From Bacillota bacterium (lineage in GTDB: Bacteria; Bacillota; Sulfobacillia; JAJZYS01; JAJYTV01): a stretch of 64,000 nt of DNA. The notes below the pieces were generated by a model. The model had not been told where the DNA came from and did not search any database. It saw nothing but the letters and a program-made list of their open reading frames with translations. The translations under genes were made by a program, and so were the position numbers. The DNA lies in the NCBI GenBank assembly GCA_021793645.1, contig JAJYSJ010000005.1, forward strand, positions 62,001-126,000. The letters run 5' to 3'. Of the stretch, positions 31,062 through 55,883 are shown piece by piece; the first letter of the stretch is position 1; each line of letters begins with the position of its first letter.

Positions 31062-32963
31062 CTACGCCTGCCCACGTTCGAGCAGGCGGCGTACGTCGCC
31101 GAAGCGACGCGTCATGCGCTGCTGGTCGAAGTGCTCCAGCAGCGGCACCGCAAACTTGCGACTCGTGCCAAGTGCCTCGCGCAGCTGCGCGGTCGTCGCC
31201 TCGCGCCCGCCCGCGAGTGCGTCGCGGAGCAGCCGCTCCGCCTGTGCGACCGCTCCCTGGCCGAACCAGATGTCACCCGCGCGCACGACCCTTCCCTCAG
31301 CCTGCAAGTACGCGAGCATGTCCTCGAGCCGCCCTGCTCCGACCGCACCAGCCTGCATCCATTCGCCTGGGGCTCCCGGCTGCAGCCCGCCCGCGTCGAG
31401 AAACTGTGCAAGTCCATCGAGGTCCCGCTGCAGTGCCTCGGGAAGCGGCTCGGCCGCTCCCGCAGGCAGCACGCGGTCCCCTGCAAGGCGGAGCCTACCC
31501 GCGTCCGCGAGTTCCTGGACGAGCTGCGCCGCACCGCGCGCCTCGATCTCCGGAACGACGTCGCGCCGCCATCCTGCGCGGTCCATGCCGCGCCATAAGG
31601 GATCCTTTGCTCGCAGTTCGCGCATTGCACGGTCCGTCCGCTCCACGCGCCGATCTAGTTCCTCGGCGTCCAGCCAGGTGTCTCCCAGCCTGCGCAGGCT
31701 GCCGCCGGCGGCCAGCATTCCGGCAGCTTCCTGCACCGTCGGCTGCGGCAGTCCTAGCTCGAGGGCCAGTTGGCCGTCCTTTTGGGCAAAGCTGCGCCGC
31801 ACCGCGCCGAGGACCATCTCCTCCGGAGCGGCCTTTTGCCGACGTTCTAGATCCTCGATGTCCTCCCTGCGGAAGCGGCGCTGGTGACCGTAGACATCCA
31901 GCACGATCCCGCCCCCGATGGTATGGGGCGGCGAGAAGCTTCTCAGGACGAAGCGGTCCCTCGCTGCAGCCGCCATGGGCTCCTCCGCGCGAAAGCGTGC
32001 GTAACCCTGCCCACCTGGCGGTATCTCCGCGGCGTCAAGGGGTATGATGCGTCCGATCACCTCCGCTGTGCCGAGGTGCAGGCGCACCCGCGTGCGGACA
32101 GGGAGCGGCGGCGCTCCATCCAGAAGGCCGAGGTGCAAGGTCACCTGCATCGTCTGGACGACGCTGCCTGGCGTCGCAAGCACCTGTCCGCGCGCCACGT
32201 CGCTGCGTTCGATGCCGCTGAGGTTCACAGCCGTGCGTTCCCCCGCGCGACAGAGGTCGCGCGGCAGGCCGTGCGACTGGAGGCCACGCACGCGCACGCT
32301 GATGCCGCCGGGCATAATCTCCAGTCTGTCATCCACTTGCACCTGACCGGATACAAGCGTCCCTGTGACGACGGTGCCGAAACCGGCCAGCGTGAACACG
32401 CGGTCGATCGGCAGGCGCATCGGCCCGATTGCACTGCGCGGCCGCATTCCGTCAAGGGCCTCTTCAAGCAACTGCAGCAGTTCTTGGATCCCTTCGCCGG
32501 TTACAGACGAGATCGGCACCACCGGCGCATTCTCAAGGAAAGTGCCCTGCAGTTCGCGGTGCAGATCATCGAGTACGAGTGCGCGCCATTCCGGGTCGAC
32601 GAGATCGATCTTCGTCAGGCAAACAATGCCTTGTGGCACGTCGAGCAACGACAGGATGTCGAGATGCTCACGCGTTTGCGGCATCACCCCCTCGTCCGCA
32701 GCCACGACCAGCAGTACGATGTCCATCCCTTGTGCTCCCGCCAGCATGTGGTGCACGAAACGCTCGTGGCCGGGGACATCGACGACGGCCGCACGCCGCC
32801 CGGACGGCAAAGAGAACGGTGCGAATCCAAGCTCGATCGAGATGCCGCGTTGACGCTCCTCCGGCAGCCGGTCTGTCTCGCGCCCCGTCAGGGCACGAAT
32901 CAATGCCGTCTTGCCATGGTCGACGTGTCCCGCCGTTCCGACCACCAGCCGTAGATCCTCCAA
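31062..32963 (-). CDS. selB: Selenocysteine-specific translation elongation factor SelB
   Basis: This GTPase of about 633 residues brings Sec-tRNA to UGA codons. The G motifs are GTAGHVDHGKT, DVPGHERFVHHM and TKIDLVD. Domains II and III follow (FGTVVTGTLVSGQ, GGQGYARFRAEEP). Four C-terminal winged-helix repeats, which bind the SECIS hairpin, occupy residues about 370-633 and distinguish it from EF-Tu. The TTG at 32963 has GGGAAGG 8 bases upstream and matches family N-termini. The ATGs at 32990 and 32984 lack such a site. No selA, selD, selC or selenoprotein was recognised in this window. An imperfect inverted repeat at 30976-31043 could be its terminator. Confidence 0.93.
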   Translation of the reverse strand: MEDLRLVVGTAGHVDHGKTALIRALTGRETDRLPEERQRGISIELGFAPFSLPSGRRAAVVDVPGHERFVHHMLAGAQGMDIVLLVVAADEGVMPQTREHLDILSLLDVPQGIVCLTKIDLVDPEWRALVLDDLHRELQGTFLENAPVVPISSVTGEGIQELLQLLEEALDGMRPRSAIGPMRLPIDRVFTLAGFGTVVTGTLVSGQVQVDDRLEIMPGGISVRVRGLQSHGLPRDLCRAGERTAVNLSGIERSDVARGQVLATPGSVVQTMQVTLHLGLLDGAPPLPVRTRVRLHLGTAEVIGRIIPLDAAEIPPGGQGYARFRAEEPMAAAARDRFVLRSFSPPHTIGGGIVLDVYGHQRRFRREDIEDLERRQKAAPEEMVLGAVRRSFAQKDGQLALELGLPQPTVQEAAGMLAAGGSLRRLGDTWLDAEELDRRVERTDRAMRELRAKDPLWRGMDRAGWRRDVVPEIEARGAAQLVQELADAGRLRLAGDRVLPAGAAEPLPEALQRDLDGLAQFLDAGGLQPGAPGEWMQAGAVGAGRLEDMLAYLQAEGRVVRAGDIWFGQGAVAQAERLLRDALAGGREATTAQLREALGTSRKFAVPLLEHFDQQRMTRRFGDVRRLLERGQA

Positions 32964-33063
32964 CTGTGGGTTCCTTCCCTTCATGCACATCTGTGCGGGC
33001 GCGTGCGCGCGCGTGCCGCCGCATCTTTGCGCGATCTCAATCGTGTTTGGCTCGGCACGCTGT

Positions 33064-33093
33064 TTGACAGGAACGATCGCGGCCTTCTATAAT
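33064..33093 (+). promoter_or_regulatory. Consensus sigma-A promoter of tRNA-Pro
   Basis: TTGACA (33064-33069), an 18-base spacer and TATAAT (33088-33093) form a perfect consensus promoter. Transcription would start near 33100, 7 bases before the tRNA. Confidence 0.9.
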
Positions 33094-33106
33094 TCGCGTT
33101 GTCGAT

Positions 33107-33184
33107 CGGGGAGTGGCGCAGTTTGGCTAGCGCGCTGCGTTCGGGACGCAGAGGTCGCAGGTTCAAATCCTGTCTCCCCGACCA
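33107..33184 (+). tRNA. tRNA-Pro (anticodon CGG)
   Basis: The cloverleaf is complete. The acceptor stem is CGGGGAG/CTCCCCG and the D-arm GCGC/GCGC. The anticodon stem CTGCG/CGCAG has loop TTCGGGA, giving anticodon CGG (33142-33144). The T-arm is GCAGG TTCAAAT CCTGT. Discriminator A and an encoded CCA end the gene at 33184. Anticodon CGG reads the proline codon CCG, which is frequent in this GC-rich genome. Confidence 0.96.
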
Positions 33185-33190
33185 CTTTTC

Positions 33191-33221
33191 CAGGCCGTCG
33201 CGTTGCGGCGGCCTCTTTTTT
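33191..33221 (+). terminator. Intrinsic terminator of tRNA-Pro
   Basis: GGCCG (33193-33197) and CGGCC (33209-33213) with extra inner pairs (CGC/GCG) form a hairpin followed by TCTTTTTT. It is one of the few terminators here with a real U-tract. Confidence 0.9.
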
Positions 33222-33643: not shown

Positions 33644-33685
33644 TATCGCACCTCACTACTCCCAAGAACGCGGAGGGATCTTCTG

Positions 33686-34093
33686 GTGTTCATTATAATC
33701 GTAGGTTGCGGACGCCTGGGATCGTCGCTTGCGCGAAGCCTCTCCGTTGCAGGGCACCGCGTGACGGTGGTCGACTGGACTCCCGCATCGTTCGAACGAC
33801 TTGAGGACATCGCGGAGATCGAGAAGGTGCTCGGCACCGGCATTGACATCGACGTGCTGCGAGGTGCCGGGGCGGAGGAGTGCGACGCGCTGGCCGCCGT
33901 CACCGACCATGACAACGCCAATATTATGATCGCCCAGACGGCCGAACAGATCTTCCACATCGAGCATGTGGTTGCGCGCGTCAATGAACCGCGCACAGAG
34001 GACCTCTTGCGACGTTTCGGCATCGCGTCGGTCTGTCCGACGCAACTCGCTGCGAACGCACTCTTTGACGTCCTGAACTCGCGCCCGGCCTAG
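33686..34093 (+). CDS. TrkA-N (RCK) domain protein, single domain
   Basis: This 135-residue protein consists only of an RCK N-terminal Rossmann fold: IIIVGCGRLGSSLARSL with an acidic residue in VTVVD ending strand 2, then GTGIDIDVLRGAG and AAVTDHDNANIM. Such domains bind NAD(H) or nucleotides and gate Trk/Ktr potassium channels. It lacks the RCK_C domain present in the next gene, so the two probably act as a pair in a hetero-ring. GTG start with GGAGGGAT upstream. No TrkH/KtrB channel subunit is in the window. Confidence 0.88.
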   Translation: MFIIIVGCGRLGSSLARSLSVAGHRVTVVDWTPASFERLEDIAEIEKVLGTGIDIDVLRGAGAEECDALAAVTDHDNANIMIAQTAEQIFHIEHVVARVNEPRTEDLLRRFGIASVCPTQLAANALFDVLNSRPA

Positions 34094-34152
34094 GGCGCAT
34101 CCTGCAGCGCAGAGGAGGCGGGCCCGGAGGCTGCGGCCGGTCCGGGAAACGA

Positions 34153-34818
34153 ATGTACGTCATCGTCGTCGGCGGCGGGAAGGTCGGCTACTATCTCGCA
34201 AAGACACTGCTCGCGGAAGGGCACGAGGTCGCTGTCATCGAGAAGGACCCAGCGCGCAGCCGGAAGATTGAACCGGACATCGGCGACATCCTGGTGCTCG
34301 GCGACGGATCTACGCCGGACGGCCTCGAGCGCGCCGGTGCTTCGCGCGCAGCCGTCGTCGCCGCCGTCACTGGCCAGGACGAGACGAATCTCGTCGCCTG
34401 CCAGGTCGCCAAGACCTTCTTCAATGTGGCGCGTACGATCGGCCGGGTAAACAACCCCAAGAACGAGGCGCTTTTCCGCGCACTTGGCGCTGGCATCGCG
34501 GTCAGTTCCACACAGGTCATCACCGATCTCATCCAACGAGAGGTCGACACGCGCAAGCTGCAGAAGCTGCTCACGTTCGAGGCCGGCGAGATCAACCTGA
34601 TCGAGGTGGACCTTCCGTCCACAGCGCCCGTCGCCGGACAGAACCTCGCAGATGTGCGACTCCCGCAGGGCAGCCTGCTTGTCGCGGTCCTGCGATCGGG
34701 TCGCCTGATCATCCCGGACGGTCGTACGCAACTCTTGGGTGGCGATCGCCTGATCGCCGTCTCACAGTCGGACCGGGAGAGCGACCTGACGCAGGTGCTG
34801 CTCGGCGAAGGCGACTAG
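34153..34818 (+). CDS. TrkA family potassium uptake regulator (RCK_N plus RCK_C)
   Basis: This 221-residue protein has an N-terminal RCK_N (MYVIVVGGGKVGYYLAKTL, AVIEKD, GDGSTPDGLERAG, AAVTGQDETN) and a C-terminal RCK_C/TrkA_C domain (INLIEVDLPSTAPVAGQNLADVRLPQGSLLVAVLR, LLGGDRLIAVSQ). It is the cytosolic nucleotide-sensing ring of a potassium transporter. It follows the single-domain homologue by 59 bases. The pair arrangement is common in Bacillota and Thermotogae next to a TrkH gene, which is absent here. Confidence 0.9.
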   Translation: MYVIVVGGGKVGYYLAKTLLAEGHEVAVIEKDPARSRKIEPDIGDILVLGDGSTPDGLERAGASRAAVVAAVTGQDETNLVACQVAKTFFNVARTIGRVNNPKNEALFRALGAGIAVSSTQVITDLIQREVDTRKLQKLLTFEAGEINLIEVDLPSTAPVAGQNLADVRLPQGSLLVAVLRSGRLIIPDGRTQLLGGDRLIAVSQSDRESDLTQVLLGEGD

Positions 34819-34834
34819 ACAAAGAGGGAAAGAT

Positions 34835-34860
34835 ACACCGCGGAGGTGCATCCGCGGTGT
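34835..34860 (+). promoter_or_regulatory. Hairpin enclosing the ribosome site and start codon of the next gene
   Basis: ACACCGCGGA (34835-34844) pairs perfectly with TCCGCGGTGT (34851-34860) across GGTGCA. The stem contains part of the GGAGGTG ribosome site (34842-34848) and the GTG start (34857-34859). CTTTTCTT follows, so it also has the form of an intrinsic terminator for the trkA unit. Confidence 0.6.
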
Positions 34861-36341
34861 CTTTTCTTGCTGTTTTCCTCGCAAGCCTTGCGGCCGGCGC
34901 CGTCCTGCTGATCGCTGGAATGCTGGTGCTGCCACCCCTGATGCGCGGCATCGGCAACCGCATGATGCGCATCATGATCCGAGATGTCTACACGGGAAAC
35001 CTCTTCGGCATGGTCAGCGTCGCGCGGCGCCTGACCCTGCAAGGGACCGGCGAAACACTGCTGCGTGCAGGGTCACAGGGGAAGGCGATCCAGCGGCCCA
35101 TGGGCAGCCCCTTGCATTTCTCGCCCTGGGAGGATCTCTTGTTCACGCCGGCCCAACTCGGGCGCCAGCCGCTGCTCGCGAGTGAGAAGACAGATCTCTC
35201 CGTCGTGATCGGACCGCGCGCAAAGCGTCCGCTAAAGGTCGACATCCCCCTGCTCGTGACCGGCATGTCGTACGGCGGCGCCCTAACGGGAAAGGCAAAG
35301 GTCGCGCTCGCCCGGGCGGCCAACCGGGTCGGCACGGCGACAAACAGCGGTGAAGCCTTCCTGGCCTCCGAGCGGCGTGAAGCCGAGCGGCTGATCGTGC
35401 AGTTTCACCGCGGTACATGGCCAAAGTCGCCGCAGAACCAGCCGCAGCTTCTGGCCGCTGCGGATGCGATCGAGATCCAGGTTGGACAGGGCGCTCAGGC
35501 TGGGGCGCCGATCCGCACAGCTGCCGAGAACGTCGACAAGAACATGCGCAGCGCGTACGGTCTCGAACCCGGGAAAGACGCCTTGATCGACGGGCGATTC
35601 AAAGAAGTCGACAGCCCGGAGGACCTGCGAACCCTGATCGACCGACTCCACGAGGAGTACCCGGTGCCGGTCGGGGTAAAGCTGGCGGCGGCCGACACGA
35701 TCGAGGACGACATCGAACGCCTGATGGACGCGAAGCCGGACTTCATCTGCATCGACGGGGCAGAGGGCGGAACGCACGGCGGTCCGATCATCCTGCAGGA
35801 TGATTTCGGCCTTCCCACGATGCACGCGATCGCACGAGCCGACAAGCACCTGCGCGATCTCGGCCTGCGCGACGGCGTCACGTTGATCGCGGCGGGCGGC
35901 CTGCATTCCCCTGGCATCTGCCTCAAGGCGATCGCTCTCGGCGCCGATGCCTGCTACCTCGGGACAACCCTGATGCTGGCGATCGCTTCAGACCAAGTGA
36001 TCCAGGCACTGCCATGGGAACCCCCGTACAGCCTCTTCCTCGAAACGGGCTCCCGCAAGGGCAGCTTCTCCGTGGAGGAGGGCGCGCAGCGCGCAGGAGA
36101 CTTCCTCCAGTCCAGCGCGCAGGAACTCGACTTCGGATTGAGGGCGCTTGGCAAGAGTGCGGTCGCGGAAGTGTCGCGCGAGGACATGATCGCCCTGACG
36201 CCGGAGGCATCGCGGCTGACGGGATGCCGCATGCCCTACGGGCCGGAGCACAAGGCGCCGCGGACGGAAGAGCAGGGGCCCCGCTACGCGCCGCCGGCCT
36301 GGGAGGAGCAGCCGCAACAGGAGAGACGTCCGTTGCATTAG
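34857..36341 (+). CDS. FMN-binding glutamate synthase-like protein
   Basis: This 494-residue protein starts with a hydrophobic segment (residues 3-25) that probably anchors it in the membrane. It then carries the FMN-binding TIM-barrel domain of glutamate synthase: LVTGMSYGGALTGKAKVALARAA, GTATNSGEAFLASER, DAIEIQVGQGAQAG, PVPVGVKLAAADTIEDD, DFICIDGAEGGTHGGP and IAAGGLHSPGICLKAIALGAD. The glutaminase domain and the 3Fe-4S cysteine cluster region of full GltB are missing, so classical glutamate synthesis is uncertain. The GTG start has GGAGGTG 8 bases upstream, inside a hairpin. Physiological electron donor and substrate unknown. Confidence 0.85.
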   Translation: MSFLAVFLASLAAGAVLLIAGMLVLPPLMRGIGNRMMRIMIRDVYTGNLFGMVSVARRLTLQGTGETLLRAGSQGKAIQRPMGSPLHFSPWEDLLFTPAQLGRQPLLASEKTDLSVVIGPRAKRPLKVDIPLLVTGMSYGGALTGKAKVALARAANRVGTATNSGEAFLASERREAERLIVQFHRGTWPKSPQNQPQLLAAADAIEIQVGQGAQAGAPIRTAAENVDKNMRSAYGLEPGKDALIDGRFKEVDSPEDLRTLIDRLHEEYPVPVGVKLAAADTIEDDIERLMDAKPDFICIDGAEGGTHGGPIILQDDFGLPTMHAIARADKHLRDLGLRDGVTLIAAGGLHSPGICLKAIALGADACYLGTTLMLAIASDQVIQALPWEPPYSLFLETGSRKGSFSVEEGAQRAGDFLQSSAQELDFGLRALGKSAVAEVSREDMIALTPEASRLTGCRMPYGPEHKAPRTEEQGPRYAPPAWEEQPQQERRPLH

Positions 36342-36678
36342 CGCACCCAGAAGATGGACGGCACTCTCCCGCAGCTGCGGGAGAGTGCCGTTTGGGCGCG
36401 TGTCGAACACCTGCACACTTTCCCAAGGCGCATATCCGGACGAATCTCGGCGATCGGGGATAATGCTACGCTGCGAGCGGTGGCGCTGCCCAGAATGCAG
36501 GCGCGAATTCGCATACCCCTAGTGGGCTTGACACAATCAGAGTCAAAGCGTCAGCCGCAGCACGCCGCTCTCCCTTCTTTTCCCTTCTTCTCCCTGCGAG
36601 AGGGGGATCCTGATGCTACGCGTCGAATCACTACTAGCGCGCCTTTCGCGCGACTTGCCTCGAAGAAGGGGCCGCTAC
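36342..36678. other. 337-base spacer with a 17-bp palindrome
   Basis: The spacer holds the hairpin at 36358-36391 and otherwise no gene. TTGACA occurs at 36528-36533, but no -10 box stands 16-18 bases downstream. A plus-strand open frame that enters from the glutamate-synthase region is only a shadow of surrounding genes. Confidence 0.5.
36358..36391 (+). terminator. 17-bp perfect palindromic terminator
   Basis: ACGGCACTCTCCCGCAG (36358-36374) is directly followed by its full reverse complement (36375-36391). TTTGGG follows. It lies 16 bases after the glutamate-synthase-like gene. Confidence 0.75.
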
Positions 36679-51366: not shown

Positions 51367-51376
51367 GGTATTGGAT

Positions 51377-51536
51377 CGTCTGTTAGGTGAGGCTACCCGC
51401 GAGAGACATGCTCTTGCCCGGAAACATCGAGAGATGCCCACGGGTGAAACAGTTCCGGTCGGAAGAAGGCCGGAACCAGAGGGCTGGAGCCAAACGGTTC
51501 CTATGCCGCGCGGTGCTGAAGCTCAACGAGGAGACG
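51377..51536 (+). promoter_or_regulatory. M-box (ykoK) magnesium riboswitch
   Basis: The leader matches the M-box consensus in order: GTTAGGTGAGGCT at 51382, TGCCCGGAAACATCGAGAGA from 51415, ATGCCCACGGGT, AACAG, a variable hairpin (GTTCCGGTCGG...CCGGAAC), and GTGCTGAAGCTCAACGA at 51513-51529. P1 is closed by CGTCT (51377-51381) with AGACG (51532-51536) and GTT with AAC. M-box RNAs bind several magnesium ions and switch off transporter expression when magnesium is high. An intrinsic terminator follows at once, so control is by transcription termination. Confidence 0.92.
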
Positions 51537-51545
51537 CCAGTTTTT

Positions 51546-51576
51546 CTGGGCGTGTTCTCACGCCCAGATTTCTTTT
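51546..51576 (+). terminator. Riboswitch expression-platform terminator
   Basis: CTGGGCGTG (51546-51554) pairs with CACGCCCAG (51559-51567) over TTCT and is followed by ATTTCTTTT. GAGACGCCAG just upstream, which includes the 3' side of P1, can pair with part of this stem and act as antiterminator. Confidence 0.88.
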
Positions 51577-51762: not shown

Positions 51763-53115
51763 ATGGACTCGGTGAACCTTCAGGACCTCGAACGCACACT
51801 GCCGCGGGACGTGCGTCAGCGTGCCCAGGACCGCGTGGAGATTCGTCGGGCGCGAGAGGCGAGCGGCATTCTCGGGCGCCTGAGGATCCTTCTGCTCCTT
51901 CTGGGGCCGGGGATCCTGGTGATGATCGCGGACAACGACGCCGGCGGCGTCATCACCTATGCACAAACCGGCGCCAGCTATCACCTCGGGTTCTTCATTC
52001 CCTTCCTCGTGCTGATGATCCCAGTGGCGTTCGTCGTCCAGGAGATGACGGTACGGCTGGGTGCGGTGACGCGCCGCGGCCACGCCGAGATGATTTTCAT
52101 GCGCTACGGGAGGTTCTGGGGAACGTTCTCGGCCCTCGACCTCGTCATCGCCAACGCGTTGACGCTCATTACGGAATTTATCGGCATCGGCGCAGGCCTC
52201 TCCGCCTTCGGCGTGCCGCTGCCGGCTGGAGTGCTGGCCGGGCTTGCCCTGGTGCTCCTCGTAACGCTGATCGGGCGCTACCGGCTATGGGAGCGCATCT
52301 CGCTTTGGATCGCACTCCTCAACCTCGTGTTCGTCCCGCTCGCACTGTACGCACACCCCAACTGGGCCCTCGTAGCACGCAGCTTCGGCAGCTGGCACGT
52401 CGCTGGAGGGGTGGACGGCACCTTCCTCATGCTGCTGCTGGCGAACCTCGGCACGACGATCGCACCATGGATGCTCTTCTTCCAGCAGTCGGCAGTCGTC
52501 GACAAGGGGCTGACTCCAAAGGAGATGCGCTTCGGTCGCATCGACACGATGGTCGGCGGGATCGTCATGGGGATCGTCGCGCTCGCAATCGTCATCCTTG
52601 CCGCGACCGTGATGCATGGTGTGCCGGGCTCCACCGGACTTGAGATCCAGAACATCCTCCAGGCGGTCGGCCGCAGGATCGGTCCAGCCGCGCAGTCGCT
52701 CTTCGCCCTAGGTCTTGTCGAGGCCGGCTTGATCGCCGCCATGGCGATCACCGCCAGCACTTCTTGGGCCGCAGGAGAAGCGCTCGGCCTAAGGGTGCGC
52801 AGCCTGAACGCGAAGCCCAAGGAGGCGCTCTCCTTCTACCTTCCCGGCGTCATCGCGGCAACGGTAGCAGCCTTTGTCGTGCTGATCCCCGGTGCACCCC
52901 TGGGGTACCTCAACATTCTCGTGCAGGTGTTGGCGACCGTCTTCATGCCCGCCGCTCTCCTCTTCCTGCTGCTGCTCGTCAACGACCGCGAGGTGATGGG
53001 CAGCTACGTCAACTCGAAGCTGCAGAATGTAGCCGCCATCGGGATAGTCGGTTTCCTCATCGTGATGAACGGGGCCTTCGGCGCCTCGATCCTCTTCCCG
53101 CATCTGATTCGCTAA
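51763..53115 (+). CDS. NRAMP-related divalent metal transporter, probably magnesium (NRMT type)
   Basis: This 450-residue transporter has about 11 helices after a 40-residue charged N-terminus. The NRAMP metal-site motifs are altered: helix 1 has ADNDAGG (57-62) where manganese/iron transporters have DPGN, and helix 6 has TTIAPWMLFFQ (APW at 234-236) where they have a MPH motif. The missing methionine and the DAGG form characterise NRAMP-related magnesium transporters. The M-box riboswitch 190 bases upstream fits magnesium uptake. The ATG at 51763 follows AAGGGGG by 7 bases. A 62-residue membrane protein follows in the same transcript. Manganese transport cannot be excluded. Confidence 0.9.
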   Translation: MDSVNLQDLERTLPRDVRQRAQDRVEIRRAREASGILGRLRILLLLLGPGILVMIADNDAGGVITYAQTGASYHLGFFIPFLVLMIPVAFVVQEMTVRLGAVTRRGHAEMIFMRYGRFWGTFSALDLVIANALTLITEFIGIGAGLSAFGVPLPAGVLAGLALVLLVTLIGRYRLWERISLWIALLNLVFVPLALYAHPNWALVARSFGSWHVAGGVDGTFLMLLLANLGTTIAPWMLFFQQSAVVDKGLTPKEMRFGRIDTMVGGIVMGIVALAIVILAATVMHGVPGSTGLEIQNILQAVGRRIGPAAQSLFALGLVEAGLIAAMAITASTSWAAGEALGLRVRSLNAKPKEALSFYLPGVIAATVAAFVVLIPGAPLGYLNILVQVLATVFMPAALLFLLLLVNDREVMGSYVNSKLQNVAAIGIVGFLIVMNGAFGASILFPHLIR

Positions 53116-55823: not shown

Positions 55824-55883
55824 GCGGCAAAGGAAGAGCGCCTGCCGGACGGCAACGTCCGGCAGGCGCTCTTCCTTTGCCGC
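55824..55883. terminator. 28-bp perfect hairpin with GCAA tetraloop
   Basis: The left arm (55824-55851) and right arm (55856-55883) are perfect reverse complements, closed by GCAA (55852-55855). The stem core reads AGCGCCTGCCGGACG. It lies between the convergent MFS and ywiC genes. The arms contain AAAGGAAG/CTTCCTTT, which gives a T-rich 3' side in both directions. Confidence 0.85.

Follow-up and report, generated by a model that had tools for sequence, protein, structure and literature searches.

A terminator-like hairpin behind a trkA-like gene encloses the start codon of the following glutamate-synthase-like gene

On the forward strand of the 64-kb window, by which we mean the whole stretch of DNA analysed, from a poorly known lineage of Bacillota, a pair of TrkA genes is followed by a glutamate-synthase-like gene, and a short hairpin spans the junction between them. 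The features of this region are:

33686..34093, + strand: first gene of the TrkA pair, TrkA_N domain only, 135 aa (PF02254, 95.4 bits; GTG start assumed)
34153..34818, + strand: trkA-like gene, second of the pair, TrkA_N and TrkA_C domains, 221 aa (PF02254 and PF02080)
34819..34834, + strand: 16-nt spacer from the trkA stop to the stem; a GGG and a single A do not vary among the nine aligned genomes
34835..34844, + strand: hairpin 5′ arm, ACACCGCGGA, the same in eight of the nine aligned loci
34842..34848, + strand: Shine-Dalgarno (SD) sequence GGAGGTG, its first 3 nt in the stem top and the other 4 in the loop, invariant in all nine loci
34845..34850, + strand: loop GGTGCA (GGTGCAA in genus g2)
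34851..34860, + strand: 3′ arm TCCGCGGTGT, containing the GTG start, identical in 8 of 9 aligned loci
34857..34859, + strand: GTG start codon of the downstream gene, the first start of its open frame, GTG in 9 of 9 loci
34861..34868, + strand: T-tract CTTTTCTT, which together with T34860 makes up codons 2–4 (TCT TTT CTT)
34857..36341, + strand: gene for a stand-alone glutamate-synthase central-domain (FMN) protein, 494 aa (PF01645, 181 bits)
36358..36391, + strand: perfect 15-bp stem with a weak T-tract, 16 nt 3′ of the downstream gene

The trkA-like gene ends in a TAG at 34816–34818, and its best NCBIfam model, NF007039, scores 163 bits, below the cut-off of 293. The 494-aa protein has a hydrophobic N-terminus, and all five PDB sequences that it matches are glutamate synthase large chains or ferredoxin-dependent glutamate synthase. 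A full glutamate synthase is rejected as its identity by a score of 68.8 bits against NF008730, whose cut-off is 1047, so the label "glutamate-synthase-like" given in a previous reading of the sequence alone holds for the FMN/glutamate-synthase central domain and not for the complete enzyme. The GTG at 34857 is the first ATG, GTG or TTG of the open frame and is preceded by the 7-nt SD. In tblastn searches, matches to class-level homologues begin at query residue 4 (L017), 5 (L024), 6 (L013) and 7 (L028), others start only at residues 24–73, and a pairwise BLASTP alignment with L028 runs from residue 32. This N-terminal homology weakly supports GTG 34857 as the putative start. The stem behind the gene is possibly the end of the transcription unit. 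Upstream of the TrkA pair, the window holds a gene on the reverse strand for the selenocysteine elongation factor SelB (31062–32990; TIGR00475, 325 bits, cut-off 242) and a tRNA-Pro(CGG) within 33064–33214, which has an upstream sigma-70 promoter (TTGACA-18-TATAAT, 12 of 12 consensus positions) and a terminator-like hairpin behind it at 33192–33214.

The overall design of the junction hairpin looks like that of an intrinsic terminator into which a translation start has been built. Positions 34835–34860 form a perfect stem of ten Watson-Crick pairs, seven of them GC, with no bulge and a 6-nt loop; read 5′ to 3′, the hairpin is ACACCGCGGA-GGTGCA-TCCGCGGTGT and is followed by the T-tract CTTTTCTT. 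The predicted minimum free energy (MFE) is −19.0 kcal/mol. As expected of an intrinsic terminator, the GC-rich hairpin is uninterrupted and a U-rich tract lies directly behind the stem, and as in a dual terminator/RBS platform, the SD and the GTG both fall within 34835–34860. The sequence-only reading had described a perfect 10-bp stem with a T-run at this exact position, overlapping the ribosome site and the GTG, and both parts of that description are borne out. The stop-to-stem distance, counted by eye, is 16 nt in genus g1 (3 genomes) and 17 nt in genus g2 (5 genomes), a near-constant length maintained despite much sequence turnover in the spacer.

Comparison with the rest of the window sets this start apart. 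Under a strict test on the forward strand (a perfect stem of at least 10 bp, a loop of 3–8 nt and at least 6 T in the next 9 nt), the 64 kb yield only three places, at 34835, 51545 and 63733 (four matches, one place occurring at two loop sizes), while each of 20 first-order Markov sequences yields none. In a terminator scan of 30–40 kb, the hairpin is among 10 sites against a shuffle mean of 4.5, which proves little. Across 52 heuristic gene starts, obtained with a simple ORF and GC3 script and therefore approximate, the local 26-nt MFE is lowest at GTG 34857 (−19.0 kcal/mol; next −13.0, median −6.3). The GTG has a predicted unpaired probability of 0.005, a value that is not unique, as starts 12582 and 61399 give 0.000 and 0.007. 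The place at 51545 is a terminator-like stem (51545–51568) immediately behind an M-box (Mg2+) riboswitch (RF00380, 113.9 bits; 51372–51568 together with the stem), so that terminators of this kind seem to be in use in the lineage. Downstream of the M-box is an Nramp-family gene (51763–53115; PF01566, 219 bits), a candidate Mg2+-type transporter under M-box control. A perfect inverted repeat of 28 bp at 55824–55883 encloses a loop of 4 nt and lacks a T-tract.

The downstream protein is matched in 43 of 61 genomes searched (its own and 60 relatives), and orthologues at 60–100% identity occur in its own genome and in G001–G008 of the family. No ortholog was found in the family genome G009 (76% complete), and in G002 the best match spans residues 1–331 only, with a second piece on another contig. 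The nine loci were aligned at the junction. In all eight family genomes with trkA upstream, which represent two genera only, both arms are identical, and the loop reads GGTGCA in g1 (own, G002, G003) and GGTGCAA in g2 (G004–G008). A change of one base in loop length from genus to genus, with both arms left intact, is as expected of an RNA hairpin; the same 1-nt indel would shift the frame of an overlapping ORF through the hairpin, and such an ORF is rejected. The T-tract is likewise unchanged in these eight genomes except for CCTTTCTT in G002 and CTTTTTTT in G006. Elsewhere the locus has diverged, the downstream protein being 61–86% identical between its own genome and the eight relatives (from codon 26) and 4-fold sites 34–49% identical. 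In the 302-column alignment of the eight trkA-linked genomes, the hairpin is the longest invariant run, at 28 columns if the one column with the loop indel is bridged and 16 and 12 otherwise; the next longest run is 7, and 105 of 267 columns outside columns 218–252 are invariant. A run of at least 16 arises in a fraction of 5e-05 of 20,000 simulations, which assume independent columns and are generous since the genomes are related.

This conservation bears on one alternative, that the hairpin is a plain intrinsic terminator of the trkA unit, the second gene being expressed from its own promoter or by constitutive leakage and the start overlap reflecting genome compaction without regulation. 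The T-tract agrees with such a terminator, and hairpins seen by eye shortly after trkA at two of nine inspected non-family loci (L049 and L053) indicate that trkA genes elsewhere in the class can have a hairpin close behind them. With a plain terminator, however, one would expect the SD and start to have drifted away from the stem, yet they lie inside it in 8 of 8 genomes, and a weak scan finds no consensus forward-strand promoter near 34.1–34.9 kb. We consider this reading unlikely.

The opposite simplification, a hairpin that acts purely on translation by limiting initiation at the GTG, with no real termination and with the T-run serving merely as codons of the hydrophobic N-terminus, would account for a GTG and part of an SD held in a −19.0 kcal/mol stem. 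It is also consistent with the surrounding fold: in the consensus structure, the spacer GGGAA/GGGCA pairs with the T-tract in a 5-bp helix (95% of cells paired across eight sequences, three pairs never varying), which would lengthen the blocking stem. The composition of the T-tract speaks against it. Wobble T occupies 25 of 27 codons at codons 2–4 over the nine loci, in a gene with 4–12% T wobble from codon 22 on, and 7 T follow GTG 34857 against at most 4 at the other 51 starts in the window (best of three 9-nt windows). The early codons are T-enriched in general, with 4–9 wobble T in codons 2–21, which weakens the signal at codons 2–4 as an argument for termination. On balance, a purely translational role seems rather improbable to us.

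None of the ten stem pairs carries a compensatory double change, so conservation alone cannot separate RNA pairing from a constraint on the sequence itself. Pairs 1–26, 5–22, 6–21 and 7–20 are fixed by neither the SD nor the start codon and have nonetheless stayed the same in all eight genomes; either two genera are perhaps too small a sample for such changes to show, or a factor may recognise the base sequence as such. These four pairs argue for a trans-acting RNA-binding protein or small RNA that recognises the hairpin and sets its terminator/RBS state, an explanation that the small number of genera makes less compelling and that we regard as very unlikely, no second copy of the hairpin having been found in the genome.

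The search for further copies was made at several levels. In its own genome, the hairpin has no second exact copy, and near-matches with up to 3 mismatches (7 forward and 8 reverse, the target included) are no more frequent than those of the reversed-pattern control (9 and 12). These 15 near-matches comprise the target, 9 hits at eight other loci and 5 hits with no locus assigned; the eight loci have MFE values of −5.4 to −14.4 and no more than 2 T among the 9 nt behind the stem, where the target has 6, and a T-tract is absent at all of them. A covariance model built from the nine aligned loci has hits at E ≤ 2.3e-10 in 9 of the 10 family genomes, the nine family matches being its own training sequences. 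Among 154 class genomes in all, screened under the tighter filter settings that large searches use, no strong copy appears outside the family. The four weak matches (G115, G125, G135 and G143; E 0.014–0.097) are hairpins of −13.8 to −25.3 kcal/mol that look terminator-like by eye, and the reading frames that begin at starts inside them or immediately downstream run to no more than 69 codons. The reverse strand of the locus is hit by the model as well (E 0.075 in its own genome, 0.055 in G003), as an inverted repeat should be. An exact-core pattern search of an 84,980-species collection returns seven contigs, all from MAGs named "Bacillota bacterium" and apparently those of G002–G008; from isolate labels such as DX, YF and DBS, our guess is that the relatives derive from acid-mine metagenomes.

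An inverted repeat of this kind could also be a DNA operator, its 26 bp binding a dimeric repressor, and the perfect palindrome with half-sites invariant in eight genomes would suit that function. A spacer that measures 6 bp in g1 but 7 bp in g2 is awkward for a dimer, and the position after trkA lies away from any recognised promoter. A scan of 10 family genomes for half-sites at a 6-bp spacer with up to 3 mismatches recovers the locus itself in three and no other site; thus neither the fixed half-site spacing nor, at that spacer, the repeated sites of a DNA operator are seen. An operator is, in our estimation, extremely unlikely. Sequestration of the SD and start is the architecture of RNA thermometers, which the hairpin would share. 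Its stem has neither mismatches nor bulges, and its predicted stability is still −15.0, −12.0 and −9.0 kcal/mol at 50, 60 and 70 °C. The temperature control proposed in the sequence-only reading is disfavoured by this bulge-free stem and its predicted −12.0 kcal/mol at 60 °C, and a thermometer receives almost no weight in our assessment.

One relative, G001, offers a natural loss of the trkA pair. Its alignment with the window skips from 33674 to 34805, so that a segment of 1,130 nt that includes the trkA pair has a counterpart of only 64 nt in G001; no TrkA pair separates the glutamate-synthase-like gene from the NUDIX-side upstream region there, and a trace of the trkA end remains (locus L004). 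The hairpin there carries four substitutions and is predicted at −11.0 kcal/mol, with an alternative register that still pairs the start, a point in favour of a translational role. Compensatory evolution through the alternative register was considered and rejected: 24% of 5,000 random 4-substitution variants are as stable as the G001 stem, so its stability is what random substitution would leave, and nothing in it points to compensation. The weaker stem of this single MAG fits a relaxed constraint in the absence of trkA.

Searches for a partner structure upstream of the hairpin return no conserved element. In up to 400 nt upstream at the family loci, no conserved antiterminator is seen, nor is the upstream sensor or antiterminator of a dual platform. 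The best competitors for the 5′ arm reach −10.8 to −14.6 against −19.4 for the arm in the eight intact genomes; among the best three sites per genome, competing pairings have no one conserved place, the −14.6 site recurs near −160 in 3 of 9 genomes, and in G001 two sites (−14.7 and −13.0) beat the weakened arm (−12.8). At the hairpin no Rfam family exceeds its gathering score, and window-wide only the M-box and tRNA do; between 33600 and 36400 at E ≤ 1 the single match is a sub-threshold RF01720 (24.8 of 45 bits) at 34016–34109, the end of the first TrkA gene. RNAalifold on the 302 columns predicts 66 pairs, 14 with changes on both sides and none of these in the hairpin, with a covariation term of −0.2. 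Possible outer helices would join approximately 34816–34834 with 34861–34876. An outer 4-bp helix (A3 columns 201–204 and 258–261) has both-sided changes in 3 of 4 pairs and 5 of 32 cells unpaired, and the covariation score of the 19-pair structure is reached in 1 of 500 shuffles, whereas sliding the partners by −2 leaves the number of changed pairs at 3 and takes the score from 0.126 to 0.113. With mixed controls and a genus split that amounts to one event, we draw no conclusion on the outer helices and regard them as a lead only.

Several known systems resemble parts of this arrangement. The rpsU-T1-dnaG region of E. coli, which we take to contain an intra-operon terminator that lowers expression of the next gene, is presumably akin to the trkA hairpin in that respect. 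In the account of Barrick and Breaker (PMC2258182), some riboswitch terminators lie near the next gene and carry its RBS in the 3′ side of the hairpin, and could therefore act on both transcription and translation. Common to these dual platforms and to the trkA hairpin is the placement of the next gene's RBS in a terminator hairpin. The riboswitches as described there have a ligand aptamer, whereas the trkA hairpin lies between two genes with no Rfam family or conserved antiterminator found, and, unlike theirs, its stem includes the start codon itself. In the pT181 repC attenuator, too, the 3′ half of a terminator hairpin carries the RBS, and reporters have shown that it combines termination with RBS occlusion (PMC5435934); it is, however, a plasmid leader controlled by antisense RNA with an antiterminator, and none was found at the trkA hairpin. 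In lambda tR2 constructs (PMC4824070), a terminator also sits shortly past a stop codon and the trailing ribosome sets its efficiency; these constructs are engineered and placed in E. coli, and the reporter start apparently lies outside the hairpin. A literature search, made partly with narrow phrases and in the open literature only, brought no intercistronic case of this anatomy to our notice. Dual terminator/RBS hairpins are thus already known from riboswitch leaders and pT181, and what is unusual here is the placement between two genes.

Taken together, the stem, the retained T-tract, the SD and start inside the stem and the near-invariance of the arms are best fit by a dual function, to which we assign a probability of roughly 0.55: the hairpin would be an intercistronic dual platform without an aptamer, a terminator whose 3′ arm is the initiation site of the next gene, giving that gene low, trkA-coupled expression. 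The stem, the T-tract and the wobble T in codons 2–4 point to termination, and the enclosure of the SD and start by that stem suggests that translation of read-through mRNA is blocked. The combination of terminator and translational block put forward in the sequence-only reading is therefore the best account of the junction, with termination, ribosome coupling and block each inferred from sequence features. As the switching part was not found, the hairpin is classed as a variant of the dual platform, and by analogy would work like one without it.

In the proposed mechanism, RNA polymerase leaving trkA would make the hairpin 16 nt past the stop codon. With no ribosome close behind, the hairpin would fold and the T-tract would release the transcript, leaving a trkA-only mRNA; with a trkA-translating ribosome close behind, folding would be hindered and transcription would read through into the glutamate-synthase-like gene. 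On the read-through mRNA, the stem would hold part of the SD and the GTG, and initiation would stay low unless ribosomes arriving from trkA opened the stem. For the stem-opening factor that had been suggested from the sequence, the translating ribosome is the simplest candidate. The net effect would be a second gene expressed at a low level and tied to both the transcription and the translation of trkA. In E. coli, as reported by Li et al. (PMC4824070), a trailing ribosome represses a terminator near a stop codon, which gains full efficiency only beyond 27 nt; the 16- or 17-nt distance at the trkA junction lies within this repressed range, and we therefore propose read-through that depends on trkA translation. 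Two features may soften the control: the predicted unpaired probability of the SD averages 0.574, roughly half open, and the block may thus be incomplete, and a ribosome terminating at the trkA stop would end several nucleotides short of the stem, so that coupling may be weak. A bolder version, which we hold to be quite doubtful, would make the hairpin a self-contained switch that works without aptamer or antiterminator, in which the base sequence and not pairing alone is selected and is read by a trans-acting factor or by the trkA ribosome. Across the family, the 26-nt element would then link the expression of a potassium-uptake gene with that of a glutamate-related enzyme, in transcription and in translation alike.

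If the dual function is true, the compact terminator/start hairpin would also exist as a stand-alone coupler of two neighbouring genes, and the natural deletion in G001 would serve as a comparison. Such a junction would be a minimal system for how a trailing ribosome tunes termination and re-initiation, and a predicted terminator between two genes would then not need to mark the end of an operon.
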